Positions 1-57,134 of a stretch of DNA of 64,000 bases are shown one piece after another; within the stretch, counting starts at the first letter, position 1, and the number at the start of each line of letters is the position of its first letter. The notes under the pieces are model-generated. The model had not been told where the DNA came from, searched no databases, and saw only the letters and a list, made by a program, of their open reading frames with translations. This DNA comes from Membranipora membranacea (taxonomy: Eukaryota; Bryozoa; Gymnolaemata; Cheilostomatida; Membraniporidae), in contig OU612072.1 in NCBI GenBank assembly GCA_914767715.1, positions 15,810,001-15,874,000 of the forward strand, written 5' to 3'. The translations under genes were made by a program, and so were the position numbers.

Positions 1-1350
1 ATCATTTAGGAGGCATTTGTAGCAAATCGACGTCGAGTCCATGTGATTATCAGAGGGGAAAATATCTCTGCGGTAGTCACACCACAAGTTTAAATCTGTA
101 TGATTTCTGCCACTGGAAATAACCCACAGTGCTTTGGCAGATACAACATGCTCGAGATAGAAATTGGCAATATAAAGGCAGATCAATACATCGCTAAGTA
201 TTTCAAGGTTTTGTTTACATTAATATGATGAATAAATGAGATTGTGGCTATGACATTCCAATCAAACTCCATTATCAGCCCCGCATGAAAACCAGTGATA
301 TTATACTTCAATTATTAGCTTCATGAATAGCGGCTTTCAATAGAATTTCAATGGAAGATACAAAATTTACACAGGTAGATTGTGTGTTTTTCTTGAAAAT
401 GTGTATTTCCAAACTGCACAGAAATCTAAAATAAATTCTTTGTAAATCTCGACACTTGAATTTGACAGCCTCCTAAAGAGGAGTATTGATAATCGTGTTA
501 GTAGTGGGATACCTGGAGAAACGTTCTATTTTTTCATTAGATCTTGTCCATCACAGATACTCAGCACATCCTAACATAGACTATCAATATTACTGACTGA
601 GTGCAGCAGGTCTTATGAGAGCACATGTCACTGCACACATCAGCCACTTAGGAAATTAATTTGTCGAGTTTTCGAGTTATTTCGTCAGTATGGATCTGAT
701 TTGGGAGGCTAGTGTTGGGTAAATTGCAAGATTCGGTACAAACTATAAAGCATGTCACGGACCATTTTTGGGTGAGTCTGAAATAAGCAAGGCTTTGTCA
801 GCAGGAAGAATCAATTGCTCCATTATAATCTTATTTTAACAAAGCAAACAAGTGCATCGGTCTGAAATGAAAATCACTCATTTTCATGCTTGAAAAACAG
901 CGGACAGGGAATGCGGCAAAGTCATAGTCGTTGATCGCAAATTATAGAACTTTCTTTTGCACTTTTATGTCATCAGACAGACTTGTGAGTAACTTTGTCA
1001 TTTATTTGCAAAAGTTGTTATCTAACCACAATAGTCACTAATATTACAGTATTTCCCCAATAACAGGCTCATCACAAATCGCCTGGACTAGTTGGGCGGT
1101 GCATGAGTAGGCAACTCAATGTTGTTAACTTATAACCCCCAAACCTACCAGACCAAATAACCCTGATGACTAATTTTATACGCAAATGCATGTGTGATAG
1201 CTGTCTTAATCTGATTTCAAGCTCAAAAAAGATACCAAGAAACCTGTTCCTTTACAATCACTTCAAATTGTCATGCATATGCCATTCTGCTTAACAAACA
1301 ACAACCACTGATTGAGCTCTGTGTTTTTAAAACTGAACAATACCACTAAA
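1..1350. other. 5' flank of the GPCR gene, no gene seen
   Basis: AT-rich single-copy sequence with no long reading frame and no recognisable domain on either strand. It should contain the promoter and 5' UTR of the GPCR gene that starts at 1351, but I see no convincing TATA box or initiator. An in-frame TGA at 1309-1311 closes the GPCR frame upstream, so the first ATG at 1351 is the natural start unless there is an upstream coding exon. Confidence 0.5.
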
Positions 1351-3298
1351 ATGTCTGGTTTAAACCAGGAGAATAGCACTTTAGCAGACTATGTTTCAAT
1401 CCACTCTGACGGGCAACTCTCTACTGGGGTGAAGTCTTATCTGATAGCTACTTCCTTTATCACATTGTATATTGGGGTACCGAGTAGTATTCTTTGCCTG
1501 TACTGCCTCCGAAAGTCTACAGCATTCAGGAAAAACCAGTTTGTATTTGTGACCTTACATTTAGTAACAATGTCATACTACAGCCTCACCGTTGGTTTAA
1601 CAAATGCGATGATTATGCTTAAAGGGGGGACAACAACCTTCCAGTGTCAGATCATAGCAGCCTCGACTTTCTGCGCAACTTTGCTCGATGTGTTTGCTGG
1701 CGCAGCTTTGGCTATTGGTGAGATCGGCAGGATAGCCTTTCCAAACCACGTATACAATTATCCTAGACTTTACATCATTCTGCTGCTAGCAACTATATTC
1801 GCTATCACGCTCTCGTCAGCTGTCTACAGATATGTTCATGTATATCTCAACCATTACACTGGCTGGTTTCGTTACTTCCTAACCTGTTTGGATGACAACA
1901 TCGTTCAAAACGACTCAGTAAACCAGCCGACCATTGTACATAATGCTCATTTTGTTGAGGTTGCTGTGACATTACCAATTGTAGCTATGATCGTAGGAAG
2001 CATGATACTGTTGACCATTAAAGTGACCAGTACAAGCTGTTACAAGAAAATAAGCAGATATATGAAGGCCAGTGATGGGTCTGATCTAGGAGTAACACCA
2101 AACCAGTCCTTGTCAACTGGGGATTCTCAGCAAAGTGAAGCGTGGGCTAACAGGGTAAGCTACAACAGTCCGACTATGCAAATTCACATAGACCTATTAC
2201 AGCTATTACGGATTGCAGTAGACCATTGAAATCCGGTCCAGTCAAGTCTTTGTCAATTGGGGGGTTCTCAGCAAATTGAAGAGTTGGCTAATAAGGTAAG
2301 CTACAGCAGTCCGGCCAAGCAATTTGACATATTACCATAAACCATAGAGGAGTATAGTATTTGCATTTCATCATTTCTCACATGCTTGATATAGCAAATT
2401 CATTGCTAGTGGATCCATTACCTCGGCCCCATTTCTTCAAAATTGCACCTTAACTAGTGAAGAAGGTGTAAGCTAACAGCAGGTCAACCTCTAACTGGCT
2501 AACCTTAACTGTAGCTAATATTTACACTTCAGGGTAAACAGGTTTTTATGCAAGTTACTAACTCATTTGCAGCAGTTCTGATCCAGCCTGCAATCAAGCT
2601 TTATAAATGTTAGACTTGCCGCTACCTGATGGCTGCTGTAAAAATAAAAATTGTTCAAATTGTTATTCACCATTCATAGAATTACACCAAGAAAGTTTGA
2701 GTTGAGTAATCAGCTTGATTTGACATCTTTTTTATGTCCATTTCAGATTAACTCAACCGTCTTGCTTATAGAGGCTTTCCAGATGATCCTTTGGCTACCG
2801 GTACTGGCGTTTAAACGTAACTCAAACATACCATTCAGCGCCACTGCCTGCATTTACCACACCATAATAGCCATCCAAGCTGTTGAACCTATTATATTAA
2901 TAAATTTCAACAGACAACTTTATAAGAGGTACCGTGAACTACGACACGCTCTCTTTGGTCCGCTATGTAGTGGGAAAGTTCAGAGTACTCTTCAAACAGA
3001 GGATGATGACACTTGGATGAGGGACTATGAAATGGCGATGCATTCTCAGTCACAACATCCTACAGTTCAAAACAAGAGACTGCCGGGTGATGATCTACAA
3101 ACACAACAGGCAAAAAAGGATAGCTGGTTAGAAAACCTGTTACAAGCTAAAGGTGTAAAAATACCCAACTCAAAACAGTCCAAACAATTTCGTGAAAAGA
3201 TCATTGGAGATGTTATGACATACAAGGAAAGTGCTTTGAAGTTATCAGAGAGAAGGAACGGCATTACTGTGATCGGAAATAATGAAACAAAAGAATAA
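1351..3298 (+). CDS. Class A (rhodopsin-like) G-protein-coupled receptor, two exons
   Basis: Exons 1351-2154 and 2747-3298 join in phase 0 (AGG|gtaagc ... tttcag|ATT) and encode 451 residues. Seven hydrophobic segments lie near residues 29-53, 63-90, 99-128, 138-160, 200-226, 270-290 and 297-321. Cys99 at the start of TM3 and Cys179 in the second extracellular loop match the class A disulfide. The TM3 end reads EIGRIAFP where most members have DRY. TM6 has LWLP, like the CWLP toggle motif. TM7 has EPIIL in place of NPxxY, followed by a basic helix 8. The N-terminus carries an NST glycosylation site and no signal peptide. The cytoplasmic tail is long, about 125 residues. The altered DRY and NPxxY motifs mean the ligand and coupling cannot be guessed. 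The tail is duplicated at 56766-57134. Family assignment is good; the subfamily is unknown. Confidence 0.8.
2083..2330 (+). repeat. Tandem duplication of the GPCR exon-1 end with its splice donor
   Basis: The stretch about 2098-2190, which ends exon 1 and carries the donor GTAAGC at 2155, is followed by a diverged second copy at about 2238-2330. That copy has its own GGTAAGC donor near 2296. An in-frame TGA at 2227-2229 lies between them, so the second donor cannot extend the receptor reading frame. It looks like a decayed duplication inside intron 1. Confidence 0.6.
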
Positions 3299-4320: not shown

Positions 4321-7300
4321 ATGGTGAGAGATTATCGAACCTATTTTGACCACCTAAAATTCATCTTGTGCTCAAACTTTCTCTGGTTACTGGTAGTAGC
4401 ATTGTTTTCTCATATTATAACAACGTAAAAATCAAAGAGAACTAATTTATCGAACACTGCGCATGGGACTCTACTCTCCAAGGATTAGGCGACCAAAACA
4501 ATTAGTTCTAGTAGCTATCCAGTCAAATTTGATTAGGGGTGCGAGACTGCATCTGCATTGAATGTACACATTTCCAAGGGGATGAAACTTTTTTAAAGCA
4601 GGCTAGTTGTGATGTTTTATTGGTTTTAGTTGTAGTGCTCGGAGTGTGAGATTTATGGGGGATAGAAACTAGAGTCAATCTCTGGAAACAAGAGTAGGGA
4701 ACAAGCCATGCGAAAATAAAGCATGACATCACATCCATGTTGTAAAACTGAGACTTGTGTCAGAATTTTCACTCTCTTCCAAGCAACCTCACTAGCAAAT
4801 GTAGTCGTAGTGGTTGAAATGGTCGTTGCAGCAATACAAGAAATCTTAACAGCAATAATTTCTTTTATCATGAAAACCTGCATTCCAAGTTTAAATAGAG
4901 TATCACTTCAGATATAGTTTGTCAATTGTAGGAGAGGACAATCTGCTTTCTGCTAGTGGCAGGTGTTGCTTGTGGATTGATGTAAGTATTGTCCTCAGAT
5001 ATTCCTTTCCAAATCAAATCTTAACATTGAACGATCGAAGTAGATTTTGATAAAGAAATCTGACCATTTAAGATGAAAATTGCCCACTGCCTGTCAGATG
5101 GAAGGAGAATGTGACAGGACAGGGATAAAAGTACATAGAATTACCTTGTCGATAATAGACATGAGGATTTGTTGTGGATTTGAAAATGCGGTTTGCATCA
5201 GAATAATGATGCGCTATCTCTATATTGTTTTGTAGATTATCACCTGAAAATGAGATGACAACTTACACTATAACTGAATACCATGTCTACCATTTGGAGG
5301 CTGACTTGTATAAAGTTGGTAATATTCTCTACTCAGATGAGAACGCAATTAAAACCACAGACGGGATAACTACATCTTTAATAGCAGGGTCAGCACCGTC
5401 ACGGGGATATCGGAACGGGATAGGAGGAGATGCCAGGTTCAATCATATCTTTGGTTTCATGCAGCTGTCTCCTGATCAGGTTATCCTCGCTGATTTTGTC
5501 AACCATTGTCTGAGATCTGTCGATCGAGCGACAAACTGGACATCAGACTACACAGGGAATTGTACATCAGGAGGTCACACAGATGGTACTGACGGCTTAT
5601 TCAGTTCTCCCACATCAGTTCTACTTGATATTCACAATCCCAATCGTCTCATCATTGCTGAAGTAAATGGCGCTTTGCGATCTCTGAATATTGTTTCGAA
5701 AAGTTTATCCACCATTTTTCGTGGGGTATTCAAATTTTACAATATTATTCAAGAGAAAGTCACAGGGAACATTTATATAGCTGGTGCTAACCTGATTGGT
5801 TATTATAGCTTTGATAGTAACACTTTGACAACACTAAGTGCTGATGGTGATTATTGGAATGTCAAGTTTTTGGATGAACACAGACTCCTTCTGTCTGAGG
5901 CTGTTGAACACAGACTTAAAGTCCTCGATCTTAAAACAAACGCAAGCTCTTACATCTGCTCCGGTATCCAAGGACATGAAAGTGGTAACTTAACCTCCTG
6001 CAGATTATTTCACCCGTGGTCACTGCTTGTCCTCGACAACACTCTCTATATCGGGGATTTCTTGCAAATAAGATCAGTGCAGGGTGAGTACAGGTAGGGT
6101 GTTAATTGTTACCCGTGTTTATCTTCTGATAAATCTGATGCAATATAAATTAATATCAATCATTTCCGGTTTGCTGTTGGGCCTGAGATTAGGGATTATA
6201 ATTAGGCATGTTTTTTGTCTAAGGGAGATTTTACCTCTCTAAACTATGGTTGCATAACTAGCTCTAACTCCCCTGATTGCATGTTAACAGGTTTGCCAAG
6301 CGCTTATATCTATTACTATCAAATCGATATTGGTATAATTGATTTTTTATATTGCTTTAAAATAAAGCAAAAGCTTTTTGACTCATTTGAACAAAAGCAC
6401 AGAACTATACTACATGTATTGGTGTATGCTGATAAATTAAAAATCATGATCATAAGTAGGACTTTCAATTAAATGCTGAGGGGGAAAGCCTTTAACCACA
6501 AGCTGGGGTTTATGTTGAAAACTGTCTAACCTCGTTAAAATCATCAAAACATGTCACTACTGTGAGGCATGATGCTAGAATAAGTCATCGTCTTCTTTCT
6601 CTAAGTTCCACTCTCTTTATACAGGGGAAGTAGATGGAATATCTCGAATATCTCCAACTACTACAACAGCTACCACTGCTACTGGTAAGATAACATTAAA
6701 ATCGGGATATTTGTAAGCCAAGATACAGGAACTTGAAAAAAGCTTGTGCTTTGTCTTAGATTTTTGACATGAACAAATCCAAAAACAAAAAACAAAATCA
6801 TTCTCACATTGCCGGTGATGAAAGTTCAGCCGAGAATTCAGTGAGCAATAATTTTTTGGAGGAAGAATTTTTGCCTCTTCAACTGTTTGAAGGGAGGTTT
6901 GCACATGTTCATGGTAGTGCCATCTAGCATTATATGATATTCCCAAGATAAGATATTAAGTTCAACTTTATCTTTCTGGAATAAGGTATTGAAATGGTAC
7001 TATAGGCCACTAAAGTAATTGATTAGTTTCTCCCTGTCCAATGTTCTTGGCAAATGTGGAAAGCATGTTGATTATAATTAGGCATGGTTTTTTTTCATTA
7101 AGATTGTCTACAAAATGTAGTTCAATACTAAGGGAGATTTTACCTCTCTAAGCTATGGTTGCATAACTAGCTCTGACTCACCTGATTGCATGTAATCAGG
7201 TTTGTCAAGCGCTTACATCTATTACTATCAAATCGATATTGGTATAATTAATTATTTTAAATTGCTTTAAAAAAAAGCGAAAGCTTTTTGACTCATTTGA

Positions 7301-8901
7301 ACAAAAGCACAGAACTATACTACACGTATTGGTATATGCTGATAAATTAAAATCATGATCATAAGTAGGACTTTCAATTGAATGCTGATAGGGAAAGCCT
7401 TAAGCTGGGATTTATGTTGAAAACTGTCTAACCTCGTTAAAATCATCCAAACATGTAACTACTGTGAGGCATGATGCTAGAATAAGTCATCGTCTTCTTT
7501 CTCTAAGTTCCACTCTCTTTATACAGGGGAAGTAGATGGAATATCTCGAATATCTCCAACTACTACAACAGCTACCACTGCTACTGGTAAGATAACATTA
7601 AAATCGGGATATTTGTAAGCCAAGATACAGGAACTTGAAAAAAGCTTGTGCTTTGTCTTAGATTTTTGACATGAACAAATCCAAAAACAAAAACCAAAAT
7701 CATTCTCACATTGCCGGTGATGAAAGTTCAGCTGAGAATCAAGTGAGCAATAATTTTTTGGAGGAAGAATTTTTGCCTCTTCAACTGTTTGAGGGAAGGT
7801 TTGCACATGTTCATGGTAGTGCCATCTAGCATTACATGATATTCCCAAGATAAGATATTAAGTTTAACTTTATATTTCTAAAATAAGGTATTGAAATGGT
7901 ACTATAGACCACTAAAGTAATTGATTAGTTTCTCCCTGTCCAATGTTCTTGGCAAATGTGGAAAGGATGTTGATTATTCAAATCTTTATCTTTAGCACAA
8001 GATACCTCTACTAAAACTACCAAAAAGTCATCACCTTCTACTGCCCAGATAGCAATTATATGTTCAACGGCGGCTGTTGTATTGTGTACTCTAATCGTTG
8101 GAGTGGTGATTGTTAAGATGAGAGGCAAACCGCCAACCCGATCTGCAGCTCAGAGGTAAAGTGAAACGGGGAGCTAAATCTGCAGATGTACTTTTGCACC
8201 ATAATGGACACAAACCCATACTTATACAGTATACGACAGTGCTGTCTTTTCTTGCAAATAAGATCGCACTAGAAATTCAAACGGTGTCATATTCAAACAC
8301 TTTCTTATTTCCCAGTATAACCATCAACATCCAAGCATAATCTGGTTATTTATACAGTCATTTTTAAAAAACGAGGAATTATAACATGATTTGTAAGCAA
8401 ACCCACAACTTATAATTTTTATCATACTTTCAGACGGTCTGAAGCTGATGGAATTCAGCTGGAAGTAACTGGCACTGCCCCCATGATTGGGAATCAGGTA
8501 ACTATCCAAGATGAAGAAGATGATGGGAACTACTGCCAGACAGATATGAGTCAGCCTGATTCTCATGTATACAGCTTGCCCAGGTGAGTTGTGAGGAAAG
8601 TTATTTGACCCCAAACATTACTTCTAAGACACACGCATAAGGTACACTAATAAGTACACAATTTGATGCAGGTTATCATTCGGATCGTAGCACAAATAAA
8701 TTGTCGTAGTCAAATGTGTTCATAAGGAACAATATTTTGTTCTCTTATTTCAGCCGTCCTACTGCTGAAGACAGTCAGCAGAAAGCTGCTGACGCTGCTA
8801 CTGGAATAAGGAATCAGGTCAATGTACAAGCAGATGAAGATGGTGGAGAATACTGTGGCCCAGATCCGGCTGATTATCACCAATACAGCCTGCCCATGTA
8901 A
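4321..8901 (+). CDS. Receptor A: signal peptide, six-bladed NHL-like propeller, Thr stalk, TM, Tyr-motif tail
   Basis: Coding exons are 4321-4323 (ATG only; the 5' UTR part of this exon may begin at 4285 or earlier), 4932-4981, 5236-6083, 6625-6684, 7527-7586, 7996-8155, 8434-8583 and 8754-8901. All junctions are GT-AG with matching phases and give 492 residues. Exon 2 encodes a signal peptide starting MERTICFLLVAGVACGL. Residues 19-300 form a propeller with NHL-type repeats (ADxxNHCLRSVD, DGTDGLFSxPxSVLLD), likely disulfides Cys109-Cys127 and Cys259-Cys273, and N-glycosylation sites. Two Thr-rich stalk exons follow, then a TM helix near 358-380 and an acidic tail with YSLP at Tyr440 and Tyr488. 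YxxP is the known consensus of Crk-type SH2 domains; signalling here is inference. The ligand is unknown. It is the best intact copy in the window. Confidence 0.82.
5236..6083 (+). other. Propeller exon of receptor A (six NHL-like blades in one exon)
   Basis: This is an 848-base exon, phase 2 in (tttgtag|a) and phase 1 out (cagg|gtgagt). Each of six blades has two recognisable turns. One is an [A/I/L]-[D/E/G]-x-x-x-x-(I/L)-(R/K) turn: residues 51-58, 103-111, 159-166, 200-207, 238-246 and 290-297. The other precedes the following inner strand: 32-36, 84-92, 139-146, 181-188, 220-228 and 273-282. The six-fold count matches the known six-bladed NHL fold. The positions that differ between copies sit in these turns. 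Strand assignment is by eye, not from a structure prediction. Confidence 0.7.
6190..7970 (+). repeat. Two tandem ~0.9-kb stalk-exon units in gene A
   Basis: Two near-identical units (about 6190-7068 and 7069-7970) each carry one 60-base Thr-rich exon (6625-6684 and 7527-7586, 902 bases apart) and the same flanking intron sequence. The exons are phase 1 at both ends, so any number can be included or skipped without a frameshift. The encoded module is GEVDGISRISP followed by Thr/Ala repeats, a likely O-glycosylated stalk. Confidence 0.8.
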
Positions 8902-26391: not shown

Positions 26392-28640
26392 TTGGGTAGG
26401 AAGCTCAACATTATCAAGATGTGTAGACAAGCCTAAATACACCTATATCGTGAATTGAGAGTCTATTACCCATCATGGCTGGTGTAAAGAATAAAACATT
26501 TGTGTGGGTGAGTTGAAGACTAATTCAGGCTATGTGTCGTTATATATAAGAATGGCAATGCATTGAAGCTATCAAACCTTTTGTTTACAAAAAGTGTGCA
26601 TCAAAAAATACAGGGAGGTAAATCGAACTTCCCTGTCATCATCAGATAACATATGATCCTATCTAAGGCCATAATGCTAATTACAGTTCTGTGTTCACTC
26701 ATTTCTTGATTTTCGCATGACCAGGATTGGGAAGTTCAACACGGTGACAAAGGAGTGACTGAAGTTTTCTGGACTTTGTGGTAGTTCAACTGTACCTATT
26801 TATTACATATTGTCCAACCACCTAATCGAATTCCACCTTCGCAAGCTCTACACTGTGACTTTGACCTAGAGGTAGATTGTTTATAACAGGTGGTAAGGTA
26901 GGCAATAAATCAGAGAAAGAACTAGGGGAGGACCCCTTATATATATATATAAATATTTACACTGCAACTATAACTAACCTGGCACAACATACATAACAAT
27001 ACATGCATTTGCTCTAAGACAATGCCAACCTGCTAACACTGTTCCTATGACCGGCTTTGTTGGAAGAACATCAACACATGATGCCCTGATAACCAATACA
27101 GGTAAGATATAATTAAATCTGGGTTATTTGTTAGCAAAGCAATGGAAATATGAAAAAAAGTTTCGGAATCATGTCATAGATTTTTGACGACTAAACAAGA
27201 ACAGATCCAAAAGTCATTTTCACTCTTATATACCCTGTGCTGGGAATGTTTCAGAAGGAAATAAACTTTCACTCTTTTGACAGTTCAAAGAATGAGGTTG
27301 ATATAAAAGCCATGGGTTACTTAGTTTGTGCGTATATCCTGCCTTTTACCCATGTCAAATGTTTTAAAATTTTTCATTTTTGGATGAGGATATTGCTGCA
27401 ATAAGATAATAAATGATGCGGTCTGTCTGTCTTGGACACTCCGGTAGCGAAATGGTATCCTAGCAGCTGATGTGATCTTCAAGTGAAATTTTTTTTGCAA
27501 AATTGTGGAACATTACATGCTGGCCCCTTCTGTTGCTGGTACACAGGACTTAATCCCTGGCTGTCAATTTGGCCTCCGTCAAATCCGTTACCTGGCACCG
27601 AGGACTTCTTCTTTGTGTTTGTGAAAATGAAGGTGAGTTCACTATAACGTCACCATTTATTTTGGTCAACAGCTGAAGGAGGAGGAGGGAGTAGCATCAG
27701 ATATCGGTATATTGTGTTTGCTGGTCCCAATATGATGTTCCAGAAGAGAATTGATAATATAGATTTAATAGATGATAGTTTGAGAATTAGTCATATTCCA
27801 ATACTCAATGATTTGAAAATCATCCAGTCAGTGTGTCAGTCTTCTTTCCTCCCAGTGCCTCCATTAAAAGGACACTACCAGTAATATTGCTTACCTCAAC
27901 ATGGTAACTCTCAATAAACTACTAAGTCTTGGTTTAGCCAAGAGTTATACTTACATTTTCATTACATTACATGACATTTGCACCTCAATATGTATGATGT
28001 TGGTTAGCCAATCAGGACCGCATACAATACTTCAAAGTAAATTTAAAAACACTAGTCGAAATAGACTGTGCTCTAAAATTACCACAAAGATCCTACCTTC
28101 TTCTGCCTGGATAGCAATCATATCTACCGTTGTCCTGTTGTGTGCTCTTATCATTGGAGCGGCGATTGTAAAATTGATATCAAAGCCAAGAACAGAATCC
28201 TCAGCTCAGAGGTAAAGTGGAACAGGGAACTAAGTCTGTAGAAATATTTTCAACTAATGATTCTTATGCAGTAACTACTTTTCACTGTCTGCTTTAGTAC
28301 ATACTATAATTACTGTATCAGTCCCTGCCCCCTTTACTTAATTACCCCTATGATACAAGCAAGATCATTTAGTGTACAGTAAAGAAATAAAGTCAGTGCA
28401 GTTGCATCCCACGGTAACATGTAAACATGTAACAGTCAAAATGTGTTTCAAATGAACAATATTGTTCGTCTTTTAGCAGTCACAGTCCTACCAGCTGATG
28501 TCATTGAACATGAAGTTACCAACGCCGCCCCTGGCTATGGGAATGTGGGTGTTTTACAAGGGGATATCGATGATGGAGTTAACTGTGGGTCAGATGAAGC
28601 TCATGTATACAGCTTGCCTCAGTGAAATGCAAAGTAAGCT
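26392..28640 (+). pseudogene. Receptor relic E1: 5' region, stalk, TM and tail exons without a propeller
   Basis: The 26600-26900 stretch resembles the upstream block of the receptor genes. A stalk-like exon ends at about 27101 (…THDALITNTG|gtaag) and its intron matches the stalk introns. The TM exon (about 28076-28215) encodes AWIAIISTVVLLCALIIGAA and ends SSAQR|gtaaag, exactly like receptor exon TAQIAIICS…SAAQR. The tail to 28625 resembles the first tail exon (DDGVNCGSDEAHVYSLPQ) but ends in a stop where the others have a donor. It is out of frame with the phase-2 TM donor. No propeller exon lies between. It is most likely a decayed paralogue, though a short propeller-less receptor is not excluded. 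Confidence 0.55.
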
Positions 28641-30867: not shown

Positions 30868-33800
30868 ATGGTGAGAGAGTATCAAACCTATTTTGACCAC
30901 CTAAAATTCATCTTGTGCTCAAACTTTCTCCGGTTACTGGTAGTAGCAATGTTTTCTCATATTATAATAACGTAAAAATCGAAGAGAACTAATTGAACGA
31001 GCACTGCGCATGGGGCTCTACTCTCCAAAGATTAGGCGACCAAAACAATTAGTTCTAGCAGCAATCCAGTCAAATTTGATTGGGGTGCGAGACTGCATCT
31101 GCATTGAATGTACACATTTCCAATGGGATGAAACTTTTTTAAAGCAGGCTAGTTGTGATGTTTTATTGGTTTTAGTTGTAGTGCTCAGAGTGTGAGATTT
31201 ATGGGGGGATAGAAGCTAGAGTCAATCTCTTGAAACGAAACAAGAGTAGGGAACAAGCCATGCATAAACATAATTTACAATGCATTCTAAATGTTTCTGA
31301 CTTTTCCAAAGCTGACTCCATTGTTGTTGTTGAAAATCGAAACTCCCCCTCTCTCCTTAGTTCACATGAATCAGACAAGGATGTTCAAATCACATCACCC
31401 CAGTACCTAAAGCTCTTCTGATCGAGGATTTATTTTAAATGGACACAGCTAATTTACACTGAATAAGGATTGGGGGTCTGGGCTGGCCCTAAACAGGATT
31501 AGGGTCTGTTTTATACCAAAGACTTATATGGGTGAGACCATATATGACCTCGTAGAGTGTTCAGGAAGCTGACAAAATATGAACGAGACAACACTTAGCA
31601 ATCTGAGCTTGAGATTAGCAAATAGGCTAAAATATAAAAAAACCTCAGCTTCCTCAACGTTGATCCTTATAAACTTTTGATAGTAGGTTTGGTGGGCAGC
31701 CCAAAATTATCAAGGTCGGCAGATGAGCATAGAAGAGGAATTGTGTCAAGTTTCTTACACCACGAAACTAAAGCATGACATCACATCCATGTTGTAAAAC
31801 TGAGACTTGTGTCAGAATGTTCATTCTCTTCCAAGCAACCTCACTAGCAAATGTAGTCGTAGTGGTTGAAATGGTCGTTGCAGCGATACAAGAAATCTTA
31901 ACAGCAATAATTTTTCTTCTTTCATAAAAACCTGCATTCAATGTTTAAATAGAGTATCACTTCAGATATAGTTTGTCAATTGTAGGAGAGGACAATCTGC
32001 TTTCTGTTAGTGGCAGGTGTTGCTTGTGGATCGATGTAAGTAGTGTCCACAAATATTGTCTTTCAAATAAAATCTCACCATATGGAATAGGGATATTTCA
32101 GATACCTGGTACAGCTAAAAAGACCTTGGGTAAAATTCATACAAGAGAGGGAAATTCACTCGCTTGGCTTAATTTTAATGATCACTGTGTATTTTATGGA
32201 AGAAAGCTGACCATTGAAGATGAAAATTGCCCATTGACTGTCCGATGGAAGGAGAATGTGACAGGATAGGGATAAAAGTACGTAGAAATACCTTGTAAAT
32301 ATTAGACATGAGGATTTGTTGTGGATTTGAAAATGCAATTTGCATCAGAATAATGATGTGCTATCTCTATTTTGTTTATTAGATTATCACCTGATAATGA
32401 GGTGACAACTTACACTATAACTGAATACGCTGTCTACCATTTGGAGGCTGACTTGTATAAAGTTGGTAATATCCTCTTCTCAGATGAGATCGCAATTAAA
32501 ACCACAGACGGGAGAACTACAACTTTAATCGCAGGGTCAGCAGAGTTATGGGGATATCAGAACGGGTATGGAGGAGATGCCAGGTTCGAAGATATCTACG
32601 GCTTCATGCAGCTGTCTCCTGATCAGGTTATCCTCGCTGATTCCCATTGTCTGAGAGCTGTCGATCGAGCGACAAACTGGACATCAGACTACGCAGGAAG
32701 TTGTACAACAGCAGGTGACACAGATGGAACTGACGGTTTATTTAGTTATCCCATATCAGTTCTACTTGATATTAAGAATCCCTATCGTCTCATTATTGCT
32801 GAAGAACATGGGGCTTTACGATCTCTGAATATTGTTTCGAAAAGTTTATCCACCATTTTTCGTGGGGTATTCGAGTTTTACGGTATTATTCAAGAGAAAG
32901 TCACAGGGAACATTTATATAGCTGGTTATAACCTGATTGGTTATTATAGCTTTGATAGTAACACTTTGACAACACTAAGTGCTGAGGGTCAATATTGGAA
33001 TGTCAAGTTTTTGGATGAACACAGCCTCCTTCTGTCTGAGCGTTTTGAACACAGACTAAAAGTCCTCGATCTTAAAACAAACGCAAGCTCCTACATCTGC
33101 TCCGATATCCTAGGACATGATAGTGGTAACTTAACCTCCTGCAGATTAACTTATCCGGTGGGACTACTCATCCTCAACAACACTCTCTATATCGGGGAAG
33201 ATGAGCAAATAAGAACAGTGCAGGGTGAGTACAGGTAGGGTGTTAATTGTTAACCGGTGTTTATCCTCCGATAAATCTGATGCAATATAAATTAATATCA
33301 AGCATTTCAGGTTTTCTGGTGGGGCTGAGATTAGATAGGTTAGATTAGATAGATATAATTAGGCATGGTTTTTTTCATTAAGATTGTCTACAAAATGTAG
33401 TTCAATACTAAGGGAGATTTTACCTCTCTAAGCTATGGTTGCATAACTAGCTCTGACTCACCTGATTGCATGTAATAAGGTTTGCCAAGCGCTTATATCT
33501 ATTACTATCAAATCGATATTGGTATAATTGATTATTTTATATTGCTTTAAAATAAAGCAAAAGCTTTTGGACTCATTTGAACGAAAGCACAGAACTATAC
33601 TACATGTATTGGTGTATGCTGATAAATTAAAAATCATGATCATAAGTAGGACTTTCAATTAAACATTGAGGGGGAAAGCCTTAAGCTGGGGTTTATGTTG
33701 AAATCTGTCTAACCTCGTTAAAATCATCAAAACATGTCACTACTGTGAGGCGTGATGCTAGAATATTCATCGTCTTCTTTCTCTAAGCTCCACTCTCTTT

Positions 33801-36800
33801 ATACAGGGGAAGTAGATGGAATATCTCGAATATCTCCAACTACTACAACAGCTACCACTGCTACTGGTAAGATAACATTAAAATCGGGATATTTGTAAGC
33901 CAAGATATAGGAACTTGAAAAAAGCTTGTGCTTTGTCTAAGATTTTTGACACGAACAAATCCAAAAACAATAACCAAAATCATTCTCACATTGCCGGTGA
34001 TGAAAGTTCAGCTGAGAATTAGGTGAGCAATAATTTTTTTGGAGGAAGAATTTTTGCCTCTTCAACTGTTTGAGGGAAGGTTTGCACATGTTCATGGTAG
34101 TGCCATCTAGCATTATATGATATTCCCAAGATAAGATATTAAGTTCAACTTTATCTTTCTGGAATAAGGTATTGAAATGGTACTATAGGCCACTAAAGTA
34201 ATTGATTAGTTTCTCCCTGTCCAATGTTCTTGGCAAATGTGGAAAGCATGTTGATTATAATTAGGCATGGTTTTTTTTCATTAAGATTGTCTACAAAATG
34301 TAGTTCAATACTAAGGGAGATTTTACCTCTCTAAGCTATGGTTGCATAACTAGCTCTGACTCACCTGATTGCATGTAATCAGGTTTGTCAAGCGCTTACA
34401 TCTATTACTATCAAATCGATATTGGTATAATTAATTATTTTATATTGCTTTAAAAAAAAGCAAAAGCTTTTTGACTCATTTGAACAAAAGCACAGAACTA
34501 TACTACACGTATTGGTATATGCTGATAAATTTAAAATCATGATCATAAGTAGGACTTTCAATTAAATGCTGAGGGTTTATGTTGAAAACTGTCTAACCTC
34601 GTTAAAATCATCAAAACATGTCACTACTGTGAGGCATGATGCTAGAATAAGTCATCATCTTCTTTCTCTAAGTTCCACTCTCTTTATACAGGGGAAGTAG
34701 ATGGAATATCTCGAATATCTCGAACTACTACAACAGCTACCACTGCTACTGGTAAGATAACATTAAAATCGGGATATTTGTAAGCCAAGATACAGGAACT
34801 TGAAAAAAGCTTGTGCTTTGTCTTAGATTTTTGACATGAACAAATCCAAAAACAAAAAACAAAATCATTCTCACATTGCCGGTGATGAAAGTTCAGCCGA
34901 GAATTCAGTGAGCAATAATTTTTTTGGAGGAAGAATTTTTGCCTCTTCAACTGTTTGAAGGGAGGTTTGCACATGTTCATGGTAGTGCAATCTAGCATTA
35001 TATGATATTCCCAAGATAAGAAATCAAGTTCAACTTTATCTTTCTGGAATAAGGTATTGAAATGGTACTATAGGCCACTAAAGTAATTGATTAGTTTCTC
35101 CCTGTCCAATGTTCTTGGCAAATGTGGAAAGCATGTTGATTATAATTAGGCATGGTTTTTTTTCATTAATATTGTCTAAAAAATGTAGTTCAATACTAAG
35201 GGAGATTTTACCTCTCTAAGCTATGGTTGCATAACTAGCTCTGACTCACCTGATTGCATGTAATCAGGTTTGTCAAGCGCTTACATCTATTACTATCAAA
35301 TCGATATTGGTATAATTAATTATTTTATATTGCTTTAAAAAAAAGCGAAAGCTTTTTGACTCATTTGAACAAAAGCACAGAACTATACTACACGTATTGG
35401 TATATGCTGATAAATTTAAAATCATGATCATAAGTAGGACTTTCAATTGAATGCTGATAGGGAAAGCCTTAAGCTGGGATTTATGTTGAAAACTGTCTAA
35501 CCTCGTTAAAATCATCCAAACATGTAACTACTGTGAGGCATGATGCTAGAATAAGTCATCGTTTTCTTTCTCTAAGTTCCACTCTCTTTATACAGGGGAA
35601 GTAGATGGAATATCTCGAATATCTCCAACTACTACAACAGCTACCACTGCTACTGGTAAGATAACATTAAAATCGGGATATTTGTAAGCCAAGATACAGG
35701 AACTTGAAAAAAGCTTGTGCTTTGTCTTAGATTTTTGACATGAACAAATCCAAAAACAAATACCAAAATCATTCTCACATTGCCGGTGATGAATGTTCAG
35801 CTGAGAATTAAGTGAGCAATAATGTTTTTGGAGGAAGAATTTTTGCCTCTTCAACTGTTTGAAGGAAGGTTTGCACATGTTCACGGTAGTGCCATCTAGC
35901 ATTATATGATATTCCCAAGATAAGATATTAAGTTTAACTTTATATTTCTGGAATAAGGTATTGAAATGGTACTATAGACCACTAAAGTAATTGATTAGTT
36001 TCTCCCTGTCCAATGTTCTTGGCAAATGTGGAAAGGATGCTGATTATTCAAATCTTTATCTTTAGCACAAGATACCTCTACTAAAACTACCACAAAGTCA
36101 TCACCTTCTACTGCCCAGATAGCAATTATATGTTCAACGGCGGCTGTTGTATTGTGTACTCTAATCGTTGGAGTGGTGATTGTTAAGATGAGAGGCAAAC
36201 CGCCAACCCGATCTGCAGCTCAGAGGTAAAGTGAAACGGGGAGCTAAATCTCCAGATGTACTTTTGCACCATAATGGACACAAACTCATACTTATACAGT
36301 ATACGACAGTGCTGTCTTTTCTTGCAAATAAGATCGCACCAGAAATTCAAACGGTGTCATATTCAAACACTTTCTTATTTCCCAGTATAACCATCAACAT
36401 CCAAGCATAATCAAGTTATTTATACAGTCATTTTTAAAAAACGAGGAATTATAACATGATTTGTAAGCAAACCCACAACTTATAATTTTTATCATACTTT
36501 CAGCCGTTCTGAAGCTGATGAAATTCAGCTGGAAGTAACTGGCACTGCCCCCATGGTTGGAAATCAGGAAACTATCCAAGATGGAGAAGATGATGGGAAC
36601 CACTGCCAGATAGATATGAGTCAGCCTGATTTCCATGTATACAGCTCGCCAAGGTGAGTTGTGAAGAAAGTTATTTGACCCCAAACATTACTTCTAAGAC
36701 AAACGCATAAGGTACACTCATAATTACACAATTTGATGCAGGTTATCATTCGGATCGTAGCACAAATAAATTTTCGTAGTCAAATGTGTTTATAAGGAAC

Positions 36801-36992
36801 AATATTTTGTTCTCTTATTTCAGCCGTCCTACTGCTGAAGACAATCAGCAGAAAGCTGCTGACGCTGCTACTGGAATAAGGAATCAGGTCAATGTACAAG
36901 CAGAAGAAGATGGTGGAGAATCCTGTGACCCAGATCCGGCTGATTATCACCAAGACAGCCTGCCCCTGTTAAGTTCAGGGAAAGCAATCTAA
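30868..36992 (+). CDS. Receptor B: propeller receptor with three stalk exons and an altered tail
   Basis: Exons are ATG 30868-30870, signal peptide 31986-32035, propeller 32383-33224, stalks 33807-33866, 34692-34751 and 35596-35655, TM 36066-36225, and tails 36504-36653 and 36824-36992. All phases match and give 517 residues. Relative to A the propeller differs at roughly 45-50 residues, almost all in blade turns, and loses two residues at ADS-HCL. The tail is changed at key places. The first motif is YSSP. The second motif's Tyr is replaced by Asp (HQDSLP). The ancestral TAA is TTA, adding LSSGKAI before a new stop. It is intact and likely expressed, but perhaps with weaker Tyr-based signalling. 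Confidence 0.8.
31140..31750. repeat. Block-S-like repeat inside intron 1 of receptor B
   Basis: Intron 1 contains a diverged copy of block S (TCTCTTGAAAC…, GATCGAGGAT, AATTTACACTGAATAAGGATTG). Equivalent copies are in intron 1 of C (about 41930-42670) and D (about 59940-60430). In A about 500 bases of it are deleted near 4700. The repeat therefore occurs both inside and downstream of these genes. Confidence 0.55.
33350..36043 (+). repeat. Three tandem stalk-exon units in gene B
   Basis: Units begin at about 33350, 34253 and 35138 and run to about 36043. Each holds one 60-base phase-1 exon. The middle exon has Pro to Arg (ISRTT for ISPTT). Spacing is 885 and 904 bases. Compared with two units in A and D and one in C, stalk length is copy-number variable. 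Confidence 0.8.
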
Positions 36993-41583: not shown

Positions 41584-44500
41584 ATGGTAAGAGATATGTT
41601 AACCCGGTTTTGACATGCTGCAATTTATCTTATGCTCAAACTATGTTGGGTTACTAATAGTAGCATTGAGTTATCATATTGTAATAACGTAATAATCAAA
41701 GAGAACTAGTTGCGCATGAGACTCTACTCTCCAAAGATAAAGGGAGTGAAACAGAGAGTTCCAATAGATCCCTGGTCAAGTTTGATAAGGATTGCAAGAA
41801 CTCATCGGCGTTGAATGTACATGTTTCCGATTAGATGAGATTGTATGAAACAGGCTAGTTGTGATTTTTTATTAGTTCACTTAGTAATTTGCTCAGAGTG
41901 TATCGGTTTTGTTGGAGAAAAGGAGCTAGGGCAAATCTCTTAAAACTTGATCAGGGAATAATCCGTTCAAAAAAACTTTTCATTGCATTGCAAATATCTC
42001 TTAGCTTTATTTAGTCATTCGAGGATGTTGGCTGTAGCTAATTGATTAATGGCTGCCAGCGTTTTATAAAGTCCAGCATGTAAAGAGTAAAGATATGAAG
42101 ATTTTTCTCATCACTTCTTCAAGAAGCCATGACTCTGCTTGTGTTTTATTCTATGATTGAAACTATCAAACAACGCTTTATTGTCAGAACGGTTACAATT
42201 TGAATTGTTTTCTGTGATTTTTCGTAATTGACATTAACGTATAGTAGGGATAGGGTTGGGGAGATATAAATTAAACTTTCTCATAAGCATCATGTTACAA
42301 AATTGAAATTTTTGTCGATAGTTTAAACTACCCCGCTCTCCCTTTTTCACATGAATCTAACAAGGAAGTCTTGCCAGTTCCTTATTGTTTTCTGATCGAG
42401 GATGTGATTTTGGTGAGCACGCTCAATTTACACTAATTAAGGACTGGCAATCTAGGCAGGCCTTAAACAGGATAACGGTGTGTTTCATACTAATGACTAA
42501 TGTGTTGAGGCCATATATGACCAAGCAAAGTGTGTAGAAAGCTGCCAAGATATGAAAGACATCACTTAGCCATCTGCAACCGCATGTGACGAGTTTAGTG
42601 AAAAGGCCAAAATATGAAAGATACAATACAATTGTTTCCTTGTAACCTGTAGATAAAAGGTGCGTAGACAAGGATGTCAGAGGAATACTGTCCAGTTTCT
42701 TGACATGTCAATAAAATATCATGAAATCACATCCCTGTTGTGAAACTCCAACATCTGTGCTAGAATTTTAACTTTCTTTCAAGCAACCTCACCAGCAAAT
42801 GTAGTCGTATTGGTTTAAATGGTCGTTGCAACAATAGAAAAATGTTCACAGCAATAAAGGTTATTCTATCATGAAAACATGCAATCCAAGTTTAGATAGA
42901 ATATCATTTCTATTATATTTTATCTATTGTAGGAGCGGACAATCTGCTTTCTGTTAGTGGCAGGAGTTGCTTGTGGATTGATGTAAGTACAGTCCTCAGA
43001 TATTGCCTTCCAAAAAAAATCCTACCATATTGAATAGGGATATTTCAGATACCTGGTACAGCGAAAAAAACCTTGGGTGAAATTCATACAAGAGAGGGAA
43101 ATTCACTCGCTTGGCTTAATTTTTGATGGTCACTGTGTATTTTATGGGAGAAAGCTGACCATTTAAGATGAAAATTGCCCATTGTCTGTCAGATGGAGGG
43201 AGAATGTGACAGGACCGGGATAAAAGTACATAGAATTACCTTGTCAATATTAGACATGAGGATTTGTTGTGGATTTTAAAATTCAATTTGCATCAGAATA
43301 ATGATGCGCTATCTCTATTTTGTTTTGTAGATTATCACCTGAAAATGAGATGACAACTTATGCTATGACTGAATTCTATGTCTACCATTTGGAGGCTGAC
43401 TTGTATAAACTTGGTAATATCCTCTTCTCAGTTGGCAACGCAATTAAAACCACAGACGGGATAACTACATCTTTAATAACAGATGCCAGGTTCAAGTACA
43501 TCAATGGTTTCATGCAGCTGTCTCCTTATCAGGTTATCCTTGTTGATTATTATAGCCATTGTCTGAGATCTGCCGATCGATGGACAAACCGGACATCGGA
43601 CTACGCAGGGAATTGTACAACAGCAGGTGACACAGACGGAACTGACGGCTCATTTAGTAAACCCAAATCAGTTCTACTTGATATTCACAACCCCAATCGT
43701 CTCATCATTGCTGAAAGAGGTGGCGCTTTGCGATCTCTGAATATTGTTTCGAAAAGTTTATCCACCATTTTTCGTGGGGTATTCATATTTTACAATATTA
43801 CTCAAGAGAAAGTCACAGGGAACATTTATATAGCTGGTGCTAACCTGATTGGTTATTATAGCTTTGATAGTAACACTTTGACAACACTGAGTACTGATGG
43901 TGATTATTGGAATGTCAAGTTTTTTGATGATCACACCCTCCTTCTGTGTGAGTATGATAGTCACAGACTAGAAACCCTCAATCTTGAAACAAACACAATC
44001 TCCTACATTTGCTCCGGTATTCGAGGACATGAGAGCGGTAACTTAACCTCCTGCAGCTTATTTTATCCTTAGGGACTACTCATCATCAACAACACTCTCT
44101 ATATCGGGGAATATGGCCGAATAAGATCAGTCCATGGTAAGTGTAGTGAGGGTGTCATGTGTCAACCTGTGTTAATCCTTAGATCAATTTGATGCAATAT
44201 TAATTTAAATCAAGCATTTCAAGAATTTTGTTGATACTGAGATCAGTCATGATAATTAGGCAAGGCTAATTTTCATAATGATTGTCTACAAAAGGTATGT
44301 GTATACTGAGGGAGTTTTAACCTCTCTAAACCATGGTTGCATAACTCTACATAACTAACTCTATCTCACCTGATTGCAATTCATCAGGTTTGTCAGGTGC
44401 TTATAAATTATTTATTATTGAATCAATAGTATTGTTATATTTGATTTTGTTATATTGCTTTAAAATAAAGCAAAAGCTTGTTGACTCATTTGAACAAAAG

Positions 44501-46522
44501 CACTGAATTACAATAGTTATATGTATTGATATAAATGCTGATAAACTTAAAATCATAATCATGAATAGGACATCCAATTTAATGCTGACAAGGAAAGCGT
44601 TCAGGCTTGTTTTAAATTTGATTCCACTCCACAATCAGTTATCAGAGGTATCAAACATGTCACTACTGTGAGGCAGGATGCTTTGATATGTCATCGTCTT
44701 CTTGCTCTTCATTACACTCTCTTATTTTATACAGGAAGTCCTACATCAACTACCACAACTACTCTAACTCCTCCAACTACTTCCACTACTACGACTACTT
44801 TAACTTCTACAGAAGCTACCACTGCTACTGGTGAGATATCATTAAAATTGGGTTATTTGTAAGCCAAGGAACTTGAATAGAAATTGAAATTTTGTGGTTT
44901 GTCTTAGACTTTCAACATGAACAAATCAAAAAACAAAAACAAAAACCAAAAATAATCTAACACCGCCTGTGTTGAAACTTCAGCAGCGAGTTAAGTGAGC
45001 TATAGTTTTTTTGGAGAAAGAATTTTTGCCTTTTCCACTGTTTGAAGGATCTTTTGTGTGGCATGTTCATGGTAGAGCAATCTAGAATTATTTGATGAGG
45101 TAATTGCTGTTAAAAGATATAAAGACAGGCTTTACCTGTTTTTGGTTATGTGTTCAAATGATATTCTAGTGATTGATTATATCTCTTATGCTTGGTTCAC
45201 ATTGTCCCAGAATACACTAGGATGCCATCCCAGATGCTTATCCCAATCGCATTATAACATTCATCCCAGATAGCCATACCAGATAGCCATCCCAGATAGC
45301 CATCCCAGTCAATGTGAACCAGAAAATGACACAACCCCAGACTGTCTGGGTCCGTCTGGGATAGCATCGGGAAAGTTCGTATGCGTCAAACTTTCCCGAT
45401 GCTATCCCAGACAGTCTGGGATTGTGTTATTTTCTGGTTCACAATTACTGGGATAGCTATCTGGGATGGCTATCTGGGATGAATGTTATAATGTGACCGG
45501 GATAAGCATCTGGGATGGCATCCTAGTGTCATCTGGGACAATGTGAACCAAGCATTAGACCAATGTTCTTGGCAATGTGAAAAGCATGTTAATTATTCAA
45601 ATCTTTATCTTTAGCACAAGATACCTCTACTAAAACTACCACAAAGTCATCACCTTCTACTGCCCAGATAGCAATTATATGTTCAACGGCGGCTGTTGTA
45701 TTGTGTACTCTAATCGTTGGAGTGGTGATTGTTAAGATGAGAGGCAAACCGCCAACCCGATCTGCAGCTCAGAGGTAAAGTGAAACGGGGAGCTAAATCT
45801 GCAGATGTACTTTTGCACCATAATGGACACAAACTCATACTTATACAGTATACGACAGTGCTGTCTTTTCTTGCAAATAAGATCGCACTAGAAATTCAAA
45901 CGGTGTCATATTCAAATACTTTCTTATTTCCCAGTATAACCATCAACATCCAAGCATAATCAGATTATTTATACAGTCATTTTGAAAAAACGAGGAATTA
46001 TAACATGATTTGTAAGCAAACCCACAACTTATAATTTGTATCATACTTTCAGCCGTTCTGAAGCTGATGAAATTCAGCTGGAGGTAACTGGCACTGCCCC
46101 CATGGTTGGGAATCAGGTAACTATCCAAGATGAAGAAGATGATGGAAACTACTGCCATATAGATATGAGTCAGCCTGATTCCCATGTATACAGCTCGCCC
46201 AGGTGAGTTGTGAGGAAAGTTATTTGGCCCCAAACATTACTTCTAAGACACATGCATAAGGTACACTCATAAGTACACAAATTGATGCAGGTTATCATTC
46301 GGATCGTAGCACAAATAGATTTTCCTAGTCAAATGTGTTTATAAGGAACAATTTATTTTGTTCTCTTATTTCAGCCGTCCTACTGCTGAAGACAATCAGC
46401 TGAAAGCTGCTGACGCCGCTACTGGAATAAGGAATCATGTCAATGTACAAGCAGAAGAAGATGGTGGAGAATACTGTGACCCAGATCTGGATGATTATCA
46501 CCAATACAGCCTGCCCCTGTAA
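41584..46522 (+). pseudogene. Receptor C: propeller receptor with in-frame stop
   Basis: Exon equivalents are ATG 41584-41586, signal peptide 42933-42982, propeller 43331-44136, stalk 44735-44830 (32 residues, richer in Thr than the others), TM 45615-45774, and tails 46053-46202 and 46375-46522. Splice sites and phases are intact. TAG at 44070-44072 stops translation at about codon 265, inside the last blade and before the TM. An in-frame deletion removes 14 codons around the first blade (LITDARF instead of LIAGSA…GDARF). Framework residues are also altered (DRWTNRTSDY, NLETNT). After the stop the frame stays open, so the stop is recent. It is either a pseudogene or a source of a truncated secreted propeller; the former is likelier. 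Confidence 0.75.
45189..45554. mobile_element. 366-base foldback MITE with TTA target duplication (Harbinger-type)
   Basis: Almost the whole element is an inverted repeat. It starts TGCTTGGTTCACATTGTCCCAGA and ends with the reverse complement. The centre is a strong hairpin (GGGATAGCATCGGGAAAGTT pairing across an 11-base loop). TTA flanks both sides (45186-45188 and 45555-45557). A 3-base TWA duplication is characteristic of PIF/Harbinger elements. It sits in the intron between the stalk and TM exons of receptor C and has no coding capacity. Confidence 0.85.
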
Positions 46523-56765: not shown

Positions 56766-57134
56766 ACATACAAACTACGACACGCTCTCTTTGGTCCGCT
56801 ATGTAGTGTCAAAGTTCAGAGTACTCTTCAAACTGAGGATGATGACACTTTATTGAGGGACTATGAATTGGCGATGCACTCTCAGTCACAACATCCTACA
56901 GTTCAAAACAAGAGACTGCCGGGCGATGATCTACAAACACAACAGGCAAAAAAGGATAGCTGGTTAGAAAACCTGTTACAAGCTAAAGGTGTAAAAATAC
57001 CCAACTCAAAACAGTCCAAACAACTTTGTGAAAAGATCATTGGAGATGTTATGACTTACAAGGAAAGTGCTTTGAACTTATCAAAAAGAAGAAACGGCAT
57101 TACTGTGATCGGAAATAATGAAACGAAAGAATAA
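56766..57134 (+). pseudogene. Duplicated GPCR C-terminal tail fragment
   Basis: Matches the cytoplasmic tail of the GPCR (from LRHALFGPL to the stop after NNETKE) with about eight amino-acid changes and no frameshift. The seven TM segments are absent; upstream lies relic E2. The similarity continues past the stop to about 57564 and corresponds to 3299-3736. It is a fragment from segmental duplication and cannot encode a receptor. Confidence 0.8.

Follow-up and report, generated by a model that had tools for sequence, protein, structure and literature searches.

Diversifying selection at recurring loop positions of NHL propellers in a large family of putative bryozoan receptors

Background

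Why should four neighboring exons of a bryozoan genome share long identical stretches and yet differ, again and again, on the same two loops of each repeat that they encode? The question is raised by a stretch of 64,000 nucleotides (hereafter the window) on chromosome 8 (C8; positions 15810001-15874000) of Membranipora membranacea, whose genome comprises 339,339,785 bases in 18 contigs. A sequence-only reading of the window had named four propeller exons, A to D, and had proposed diversifying selection on one binding face. Histocompatibility and intraspecific fusion in bryozoans appear as subjects of older papers; among the full-text matches listed, a set outside which most subscription journals fall, no title or opening of an abstract names a bryozoan molecular allorecognition determinant or an NHL-based variable receptor.

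Results

Gene anatomy in the window

All four exons lie, on the forward strand, where the sequence-only reading had placed them (A at 5236-6083, B at 32383-33224, C at 43331-44136 and D at 61123-61970), and are predicted to belong to four tandem genes, each encoding an NHL propeller. Exon A is bounded by an acceptor TAG directly before position 5236 (phase 2 in) and by a donor, CAGG followed by GTGAGT, after 6083 (phase 1 out). The residue numbering of that reading drifts, because its list of variable residues reaches 292-294 whereas exon A encodes 282 residues and its open frame 290.

For gene A a model of seven forward-strand exons, all phases agreeing, can be drawn up: a candidate signal-peptide exon (4321-4424; a hydrophobic open frame that ends in phase 2, matching the propeller exon, with a weak donor, GTAAAA), the propeller exon, two Thr-rich stalk exons (6625-6684, recognized by splice sites, phase and an approximately 900-base repeated block, and 7527-7586, within such a block; both symmetric, 1-1), a transmembrane exon (8002-8155; a hydrophobic segment, phases 1 to 2), and two cytoplasmic exons (8434-8583 and 8754-8897; phases 2-2, each ending in YSLP). 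So arranged, gene A reads as a putative type I single-pass receptor, with its splicing and surface location predicted from this anatomy. A stop codon stands directly past the donor of each tail exon (PR-stop and PM-stop, respectively), and either exon could therefore be the last if its donor were skipped. Tandem blocks of approximately 900 bases, each with one symmetric Thr-rich stalk exon, occupy about 6220-8000, 33350-36120 and 62100-63950 (two blocks in A, three in B and two in D), so that the length of the stalk can change by unequal exchange.

The other three genes, on the same strand, follow this plan in part. Gene B has a candidate signal-peptide exon (30868-30971, a tblastn match to that of A), three stalk exons (33807-33866, 34692-34751 and 35596-35655; tblastn matches with edges set by analogy with A), a transmembrane exon (36072-36225, edges likewise by analogy) and two cytoplasmic exons (about 36504-36653 and 36824-36967), of which the first ends in YSSP and the second in DSLP, a loss of the tyrosine that counts against reading the protein as a receptor that signals through its tail; its propeller is without two residues of the blade-2 b-c loop. 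Gene C has a candidate signal-peptide exon (41615-41688), a transmembrane exon (45621-45774) and two cytoplasmic exons (about 46053-46202 and 46375-46518), and no stalk exon was matched in it. Its propeller is 14 residues shorter, with part of the blade 1-2 loop missing, and given this gap and an in-frame stop at 44070-44072, C is probably a pseudogene. Gene D has a candidate signal-peptide exon (59612-59715), two stalk exons (62514-62573 and 63417-63476) and a transmembrane exon cut by the end of the window (63892-64000).

Counterparts of the signal exon were found upstream of six near copies only (A, B, C, D and two more, with E frame-broken); none was found upstream of the more distant family copies, which counts against the receptor reading. 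Related transmembrane exons lie downstream of propellers on C1, C4, C6 and C8 and, by inspection, on C7; for one member of the C8 20-Mb region (L066), the surrounding sequence to about 5.9 kb showed none, which also counts against that reading. The tails of other members carry YSSP, YSKP, YNTP or YSEP, variants of a YxxP motif that we take to be a Crk-type SH2 site. One member on C6 (L067, C6:16161000-16168000) differs in its downstream part: the propeller exon continues into a Cys-containing region, and a downstream frame with CPNDCSGNGKW looks EGF-like, a different architecture.

Other features of the window can be placed beside these genes. A transmembrane exon and a tail exon ending in YSLP, of an older type, stand at 28072-28619 without a neighboring propeller exon in the window; they may be left over from a lost member or belong to another gene of the propeller family. 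Upstream of gene A, at 1312-3298, two long open frames resemble pieces of a multi-pass membrane protein, by eye possibly a seven-helix receptor, although no Pfam family scored above its cut-off in them; the last part of the second is found again at 56853-57134, and this neighbor gene is therefore at least partly duplicated. Motif scans of the window for a receptor kinase gave no convincing candidate.

Domain identity and register

The propeller is related to NHL domains. In a single-sequence search of solved structures the best matches of the exon were SOQ1 (6.5e-10) and NHLRC2 (1.1e-4), and a profile search of structures, with 17 sequences matched, reached SOQ1, NHLRC2 and TRIM71; among public proteins, a profile search returned near relatives first and then many bacterial and metagenomic NHL proteins (best 120 of 188). 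The cut-off of the Pfam NHL model PF01436 is missed by A, B, C and D and by the public relatives P0001 and P0003, and is passed by the relatives P0004, P0005 and P0007. The NHL domains of SOQ1 and NHLRC2 have in common with the bryozoan propellers the motif aDtxNHxLR after strand b; SOQ1, a chloroplast protein by its molecule name, differs in domain context.

Aligned by motif, the NHL register divides the sequence into six blades, and the outer strand of blade 6 is formed by the N-terminal stretch. This arrangement fits TRIM-NHL domains (TRIM71/LIN41, Brat and TRIM2/3), which, in the available part of their description, are likewise six-bladed, have both chain ends in the sixth sheet, and present a top opening, the putative binding site, that together with the blade-connecting loops makes up the variable interaction side (PMC9634614); these proteins differ in being TRIM-family E3 ligases, some of them RNA-binding. 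Our assignment of strands, loops and faces follows this NHL repeat topology.

Where the variation falls

Counted by topology, the variable residues do fall, as the sequence-only reading had it, on two loop types per blade, those joining strand d to strand a (d-a) and strand b to strand c (b-c). With three near copies added to A, B, C and D, these loops, which make up 99 of 282 codons, hold 42 of the 59 sites with at least two extra residues and 19 of the 23 with at least three; when the loop classes were shifted circularly, the observed loop sum was reached, among 282 shifts, by the unshifted one only. The earlier remark that many variable codons differ at more than one base was also borne out: codons with two or three changed bases number 18 against 7.7 expected for A-B, 15 against 5.1 for A-D and 23 against 9.3 for B-D, counts equaled by none of 2000 shuffles in each case. 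The identity of the framework holds for the stretch ALRSLNIVSKSLSTIF, but this lies within a tract (codons 146-212) that is also nearly identical at silent sites (dS 0.02 for A-C and A-D, 0.05 for A-B), and gene conversion or recent copying therefore contributes there.

Exchange between copies is visible at a larger scale as well. In the propeller, 68 of 846 bases (8.0%) distinguish A from D, against only 12 of 2050 over 6061-8110, with the shift in divergence falling where the exon ends. Divergence of 8-13% is also present in the 375 bases before the exon, which is thus not the only diverged part. Between C and A the surroundings match at 69-84%, the exon tract at codons 146-212 has its dS of 0.02, and the membrane and tail part matches at 95%. 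Compatibility of neighboring sites is above that of shuffled alignments in the C7 group described below (3/2000) and in the window set with C (37/2000); such clustering is absent from the six intact genes (1008/2000) and the C8 set (453/2000). We read these tracts as places where conversion has homogenized framework and membrane parts, and it may therefore account for some of the identical framework noted earlier.

Codon models of selection

The sequence-only reading had also put the amino-acid differences between A and B at several times the silent ones. The raw count stands (64.5 versus 18.5), but it is approximately the ratio of the site numbers: over the exon dN is 0.107 and dS 0.103 (ω = 1.04), with whole-exon ω of 1.03 for A-D and 0.82 for B-D, and we rejected the raw count as evidence of selection because ω per site over the exon is about 1. 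Divided by topology, the same three genes (A, B and D) give an ω of 1.56 for the d-a and b-c loops and 0.33 for the strands; for the opposite turns, with 14 replacement changes and none that is silent, there is no ratio.

A DNA search of the genome gave 24 matches, of which 14 entered the codon alignment and ten were left out, six as broken (C8 15912417, 23305526, 16092113, 15903449, 16073132 and 16147979) and four as short pieces (C7 28094607 and C8 16087356, 16096066 and 16147930). From the 14 we drew a set of six genes taken to be intact and a set of nine that includes C (stop set to gap) and C7_14875 (without its first 47 codons), leaving five more distant copies unused. Two further subfamilies were sampled: a C7 group of 11 hand-picked loci (ten on C7 and L022 on C8, with L013, L019, L020, L021 and others omitted) and a C8 group of nine genes (eight at 20-21.5 Mb and one at 17.97 Mb), which was extended to 29 genes from the 30 places at 19.8-21.7 Mb together with the one at 17.97 Mb. 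A five-gene array on C9 (L025-L029, C9:5112914-5169273, about 56 kb) was dropped from the site test as too young (median dS 0.02); its replacement differences are mostly in d-a loops (52 of 80 pairwise-summed counts). Site models were fitted with custom code (F3x4 codon frequencies; M1a against M2a, without M7/M8), and posteriors are naive empirical rather than Bayes empirical.

Certain codons carry an excess of replacements in every set. In the window set M2a is favored over M1a by 72.4 units (twice the log-likelihood difference, 2ΔlnL) for the six genes, with 11% of codons at ω 6.7, and by 120.0 for the nine, with 9.3% at ω 6.8; the C7 group gives 180, with about 8% of codons at ω 5.7, the nine-gene C8 group 80, with about 8% at ω 4.45, and the 29-gene C8 set 330 (scaled nucleotide branch lengths). 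Across the window set and the two other subfamilies this class thus covers 8-13% of codons at ω of about 4-7, and the codon-site check proposed by the sequence-only reading came out in its favor for a minority of codons. Recombination was rejected as the cause of the signal: the maximum 2ΔlnL was 3.98 in 12 null simulations and 7.34 in 12 recombinant ones (six randomly relabeled segments per alignment with scaled nucleotide branch lengths, the one design that they cover), against 73.9 for the real six-gene set under the same procedure.

Positions with high posteriors fall largely where the topology would put them. Selected sites lie on d-a or b-c loops in 18 of 21 cases in the nine-gene window set (the exceptions being F72 in strand a, whose boundaries were set here, W101 in strand d and H133 in an a-b turn); of the sites above 0.9, all 21 in the C7 group and ten of 12 in the nine-gene C8 group do so, and of the 27 sites above 0.95 in the 29-gene set, 23 map to residues of A, with 20 of these on the two loop types. 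Clustering was thereby upheld in terms of NHL topology, with the strands and the a-b and c-d turns conserved. Tested as predefined classes in the six genes, the loops have ω 1.75 inside and 0.44 outside (2ΔlnL 17.2 against ω 1) and the opposite turns ω 0.46. Taken whole, the loop class falls slightly short of an ω of 1 in the other two groups (0.93 in C7 and 0.91 in C8), so that selection acts on particular loop residues. The topology classes were fixed after the window alignment had been viewed and before the C7 and C8 alignments. Taken over these codon models, diversifying selection at repeated NHL loop positions appears well supported in three subfamilies of one genome.

Recurring positions within the blade

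To name those residues we anchored each blade on P, the equivalent of the NHL proline before strand a, and on D, the residue that ends strand b (blades 1, 2, 4 and 5 of A are without the proline, and their anchors were set by eye), and defined 24 register positions as P-1, P+1, D+1 and D+2 in each blade. The mean probability of ω > 1 in the window, C8 and C7 sets, respectively, is 0.93, 0.69 and 0.89 at D+1; 0.59, 0.41 and 0.66 at D+2; 0.54, 0.43 and 0.50 at P-1; and 0.72, 0.49 and 0.50 at P+1. It is at most 0.03 for the four residues preceding D and 0.01, 0.02 and 0.28 for P itself, and in the C7 group P-2 is also high (0.56). Among sites above 0.9 that map to A, those in the four positions number 15 of 21 (window), seven of 11 (C8) and 14 of 20 (C7). 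The blades are unequal, and not all four positions are selected in every blade.

A tree-free estimate agrees in direction: at the 24 positions, dN over exon-wide dS is 6.2 for A, B and D (bootstrap 3.8-11.1), 2.0 for the nine C8 genes (1.4-2.7) and 1.9 for the C7 group (1.4-2.7). Against selection as the sole cause, silent divergence at these codons is itself raised (0.32 versus 0.107 exon-wide in A, B and D; 0.60 and 1.0 in the other groups), which multiply hit codons can cause and which local conversion or mutation could also produce. In the 29-gene set 17 sites above 0.95 are among the 24 pre-set positions; these had been set after nine C8 and 11 C7 sequences were viewed, so only the 20 further C8 sequences are unseen data, and they come from the array that the first nine had already sampled.

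The residues found at the 24 positions are distinctive. Trp accounts for 39 of 681 residues there and four of 6757 elsewhere (29-gene set), Tyr is enriched 4.5-fold in that set and 2.5- and 2.8-fold in the others, and Asn and His are raised in each; a make-up rich in Trp and Tyr is reminiscent of antibody contact residues. The 29 genes carry 25 distinct 24-residue strings.

Extent of the family

A genome search with P0004, in which 131 of 511 first-look candidates were scored, gave at least 135 matches, merging to at least 131 places, a figure for places that match the propeller family rather than a genome-wide count of intact genes. As lower bounds, C8 has 64 of these and C7 has 20, and none of the 11 chromosomes is without one. 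They are clustered, 77 of the 131 having another within 100 kb and 30 lying at C8 19.8-21.7 Mb. Among public relatives, P0002 is 99.5% identical to the copy at C8:23305526, and P0003-P0005 are about 50% identical to copies of the C7 type. P0001 comes from a public read assembly and shares 97% identity with the copy at C8:18444907, of which it is a candidate allele at most; in this one pair seven of 273 residues differ, five of them in d-a loops.

Discussion

A proposed explanation

We propose, with a probability of roughly two in three, that these genes belong to a diversified bryozoan family of putative recognition receptors in which one face of the propeller is under diversifying selection. 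A to D would belong, as tandem genes, to a large family whose members are putative type I single-pass receptors with, as extracellular head, a six-blade NHL propeller closed by its N-terminal strand and carried on a Thr-rich stalk of variable length, followed by a transmembrane helix and a tail with YxxP motifs. One face would be formed by the d-a and b-c loops, on which up to four recurring residues per blade, flanking the NHL proline and occupying the two positions after the aspartate of strand b, would diversify, with the strands and opposite turns mostly under purifying selection. That the selected loop positions make up a single ligand face is likely from NHL topology. The face would most likely bind a variable partner, whether microbe, parasite or another colony, and signaling from the tail would most likely run through phosphotyrosine adaptors; duplication and conversion may spread and homogenize the framework and membrane parts, and selection may keep the faces apart. 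Recognition of non-self is the most likely use of such a family, with allorecognition one possibility among several.

The loops might instead vary through weak constraint alone, with duplicated copies drifting and many of them dying. The whole-exon ω near 1 among close copies would fit this, as would the stop in C and the six of 24 DNA matches that are broken by stops or frame shifts. Drift would not, however, place a class of codons well above rather than at an ω of 1 in three subfamilies, nor would it lead one to expect the enrichment of Trp and Tyr; fixing the loop ω at 1 carries the cost in likelihood given above for the window set, and none of the 29 C8 copies has a stop in the aligned segment. 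We regard drift as a hardly credible account. The raised silent divergence at the 24 codons speaks for a different process, in which mutation or micro-conversion aimed at the loops makes the pattern and selection merely filters it, and conversion tracts do exist; both the C7 group and the window set that includes C show clustered site compatibility. Yet neighboring loop codons are ordinary in silent divergence (0.117 versus 0.107), the clustering does not extend to the six intact genes or the C8 set, and simulated recombinants did not reproduce the signal, so that we consider a loop-aimed process quite improbable.

More plausibly, though still unlikely in our judgment, the paralogs may each have diverged once toward a different fixed ligand, as in chemosensing, hormone or food detection, with no continuing contest. 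Many paralogs in arrays on all 11 chromosomes would be expected of such a repertoire, and YxxP tails, given the meaning that we presume for the motif, would suit any kinase-coupled receptor. Against it, near and more distant groups are selected at the same positions, and the differences between P0001 and its genome copy fall mainly on d-a loops, albeit in one pair only.

Comparison with known systems

Read as diversified recognition receptors, these propellers would work as does their nearest known parallel, the HET-D/HET-E (HNWD) genes of the fungus Podospora anserina, in which, in the available part of the account, four codons per WD40 repeat are under diversifying selection, as one pair in the d-to-a loop and one in the b-c turn, each around a conserved site (PMC1805685). 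As far as that part goes, the two systems are alike in having d-a and b-c pairs that are positively selected (in the bryozoan not every blade has all four positions), in forming gene families and in exchange between copies. They differ in that the HET-D/E domain is WD40, its within-gene repeats are near-identical and exchanged as units, and the genes are NACHT/WD-repeat genes that control heterokaryon incompatibility, not membrane receptors; in the bryozoan propellers, unlike these, the blades of one protein have diverged from each other and exchange involves whole exons or tracts. The bryozoan genes are thus not members of the HET-D/E family, the domain being NHL and its six blades mutually different (for NACHT the scope is the Pfam scan of the propeller). 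Coral tachylectin-2, likewise a putative immune protein of an invertebrate, is highly diverse in amino acids and under positive selection, but it is a putative lectin, represented by alleles of one Oculina gene and modeled on horseshoe-crab tachylectin-2, and the accessible portion of its description names neither NHL repeats nor receptor anatomy (PMC2880987).

Whether recognition in this bryozoan would concern its own kind is a narrower matter. The allorecognition genes of Hydractinia (Alr) and Botryllus encode clustered, diversified cell-surface proteins of colonial animals, with different folds. It is a speculative and rather doubtful extension of our proposal that the family forms an NHL-propeller repertoire with a six-fold, paratope-like face, part of which is the missing molecular basis of self/non-self discrimination in bryozoan colonies and a convergent animal membrane-receptor counterpart of HET-D/E.

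Conclusion

Because the loop positions expected to touch a partner change unusually fast, the members of this family are candidates for recognizing foreign or rival organisms, and the family offers at least 131 places and a short list of codons with which recognition in bryozoans can be tested. If the proposal is true, the WD40 propellers of a fungus and the NHL propellers of an animal, as separate lineages, would diversify at matching pairs of loop positions.
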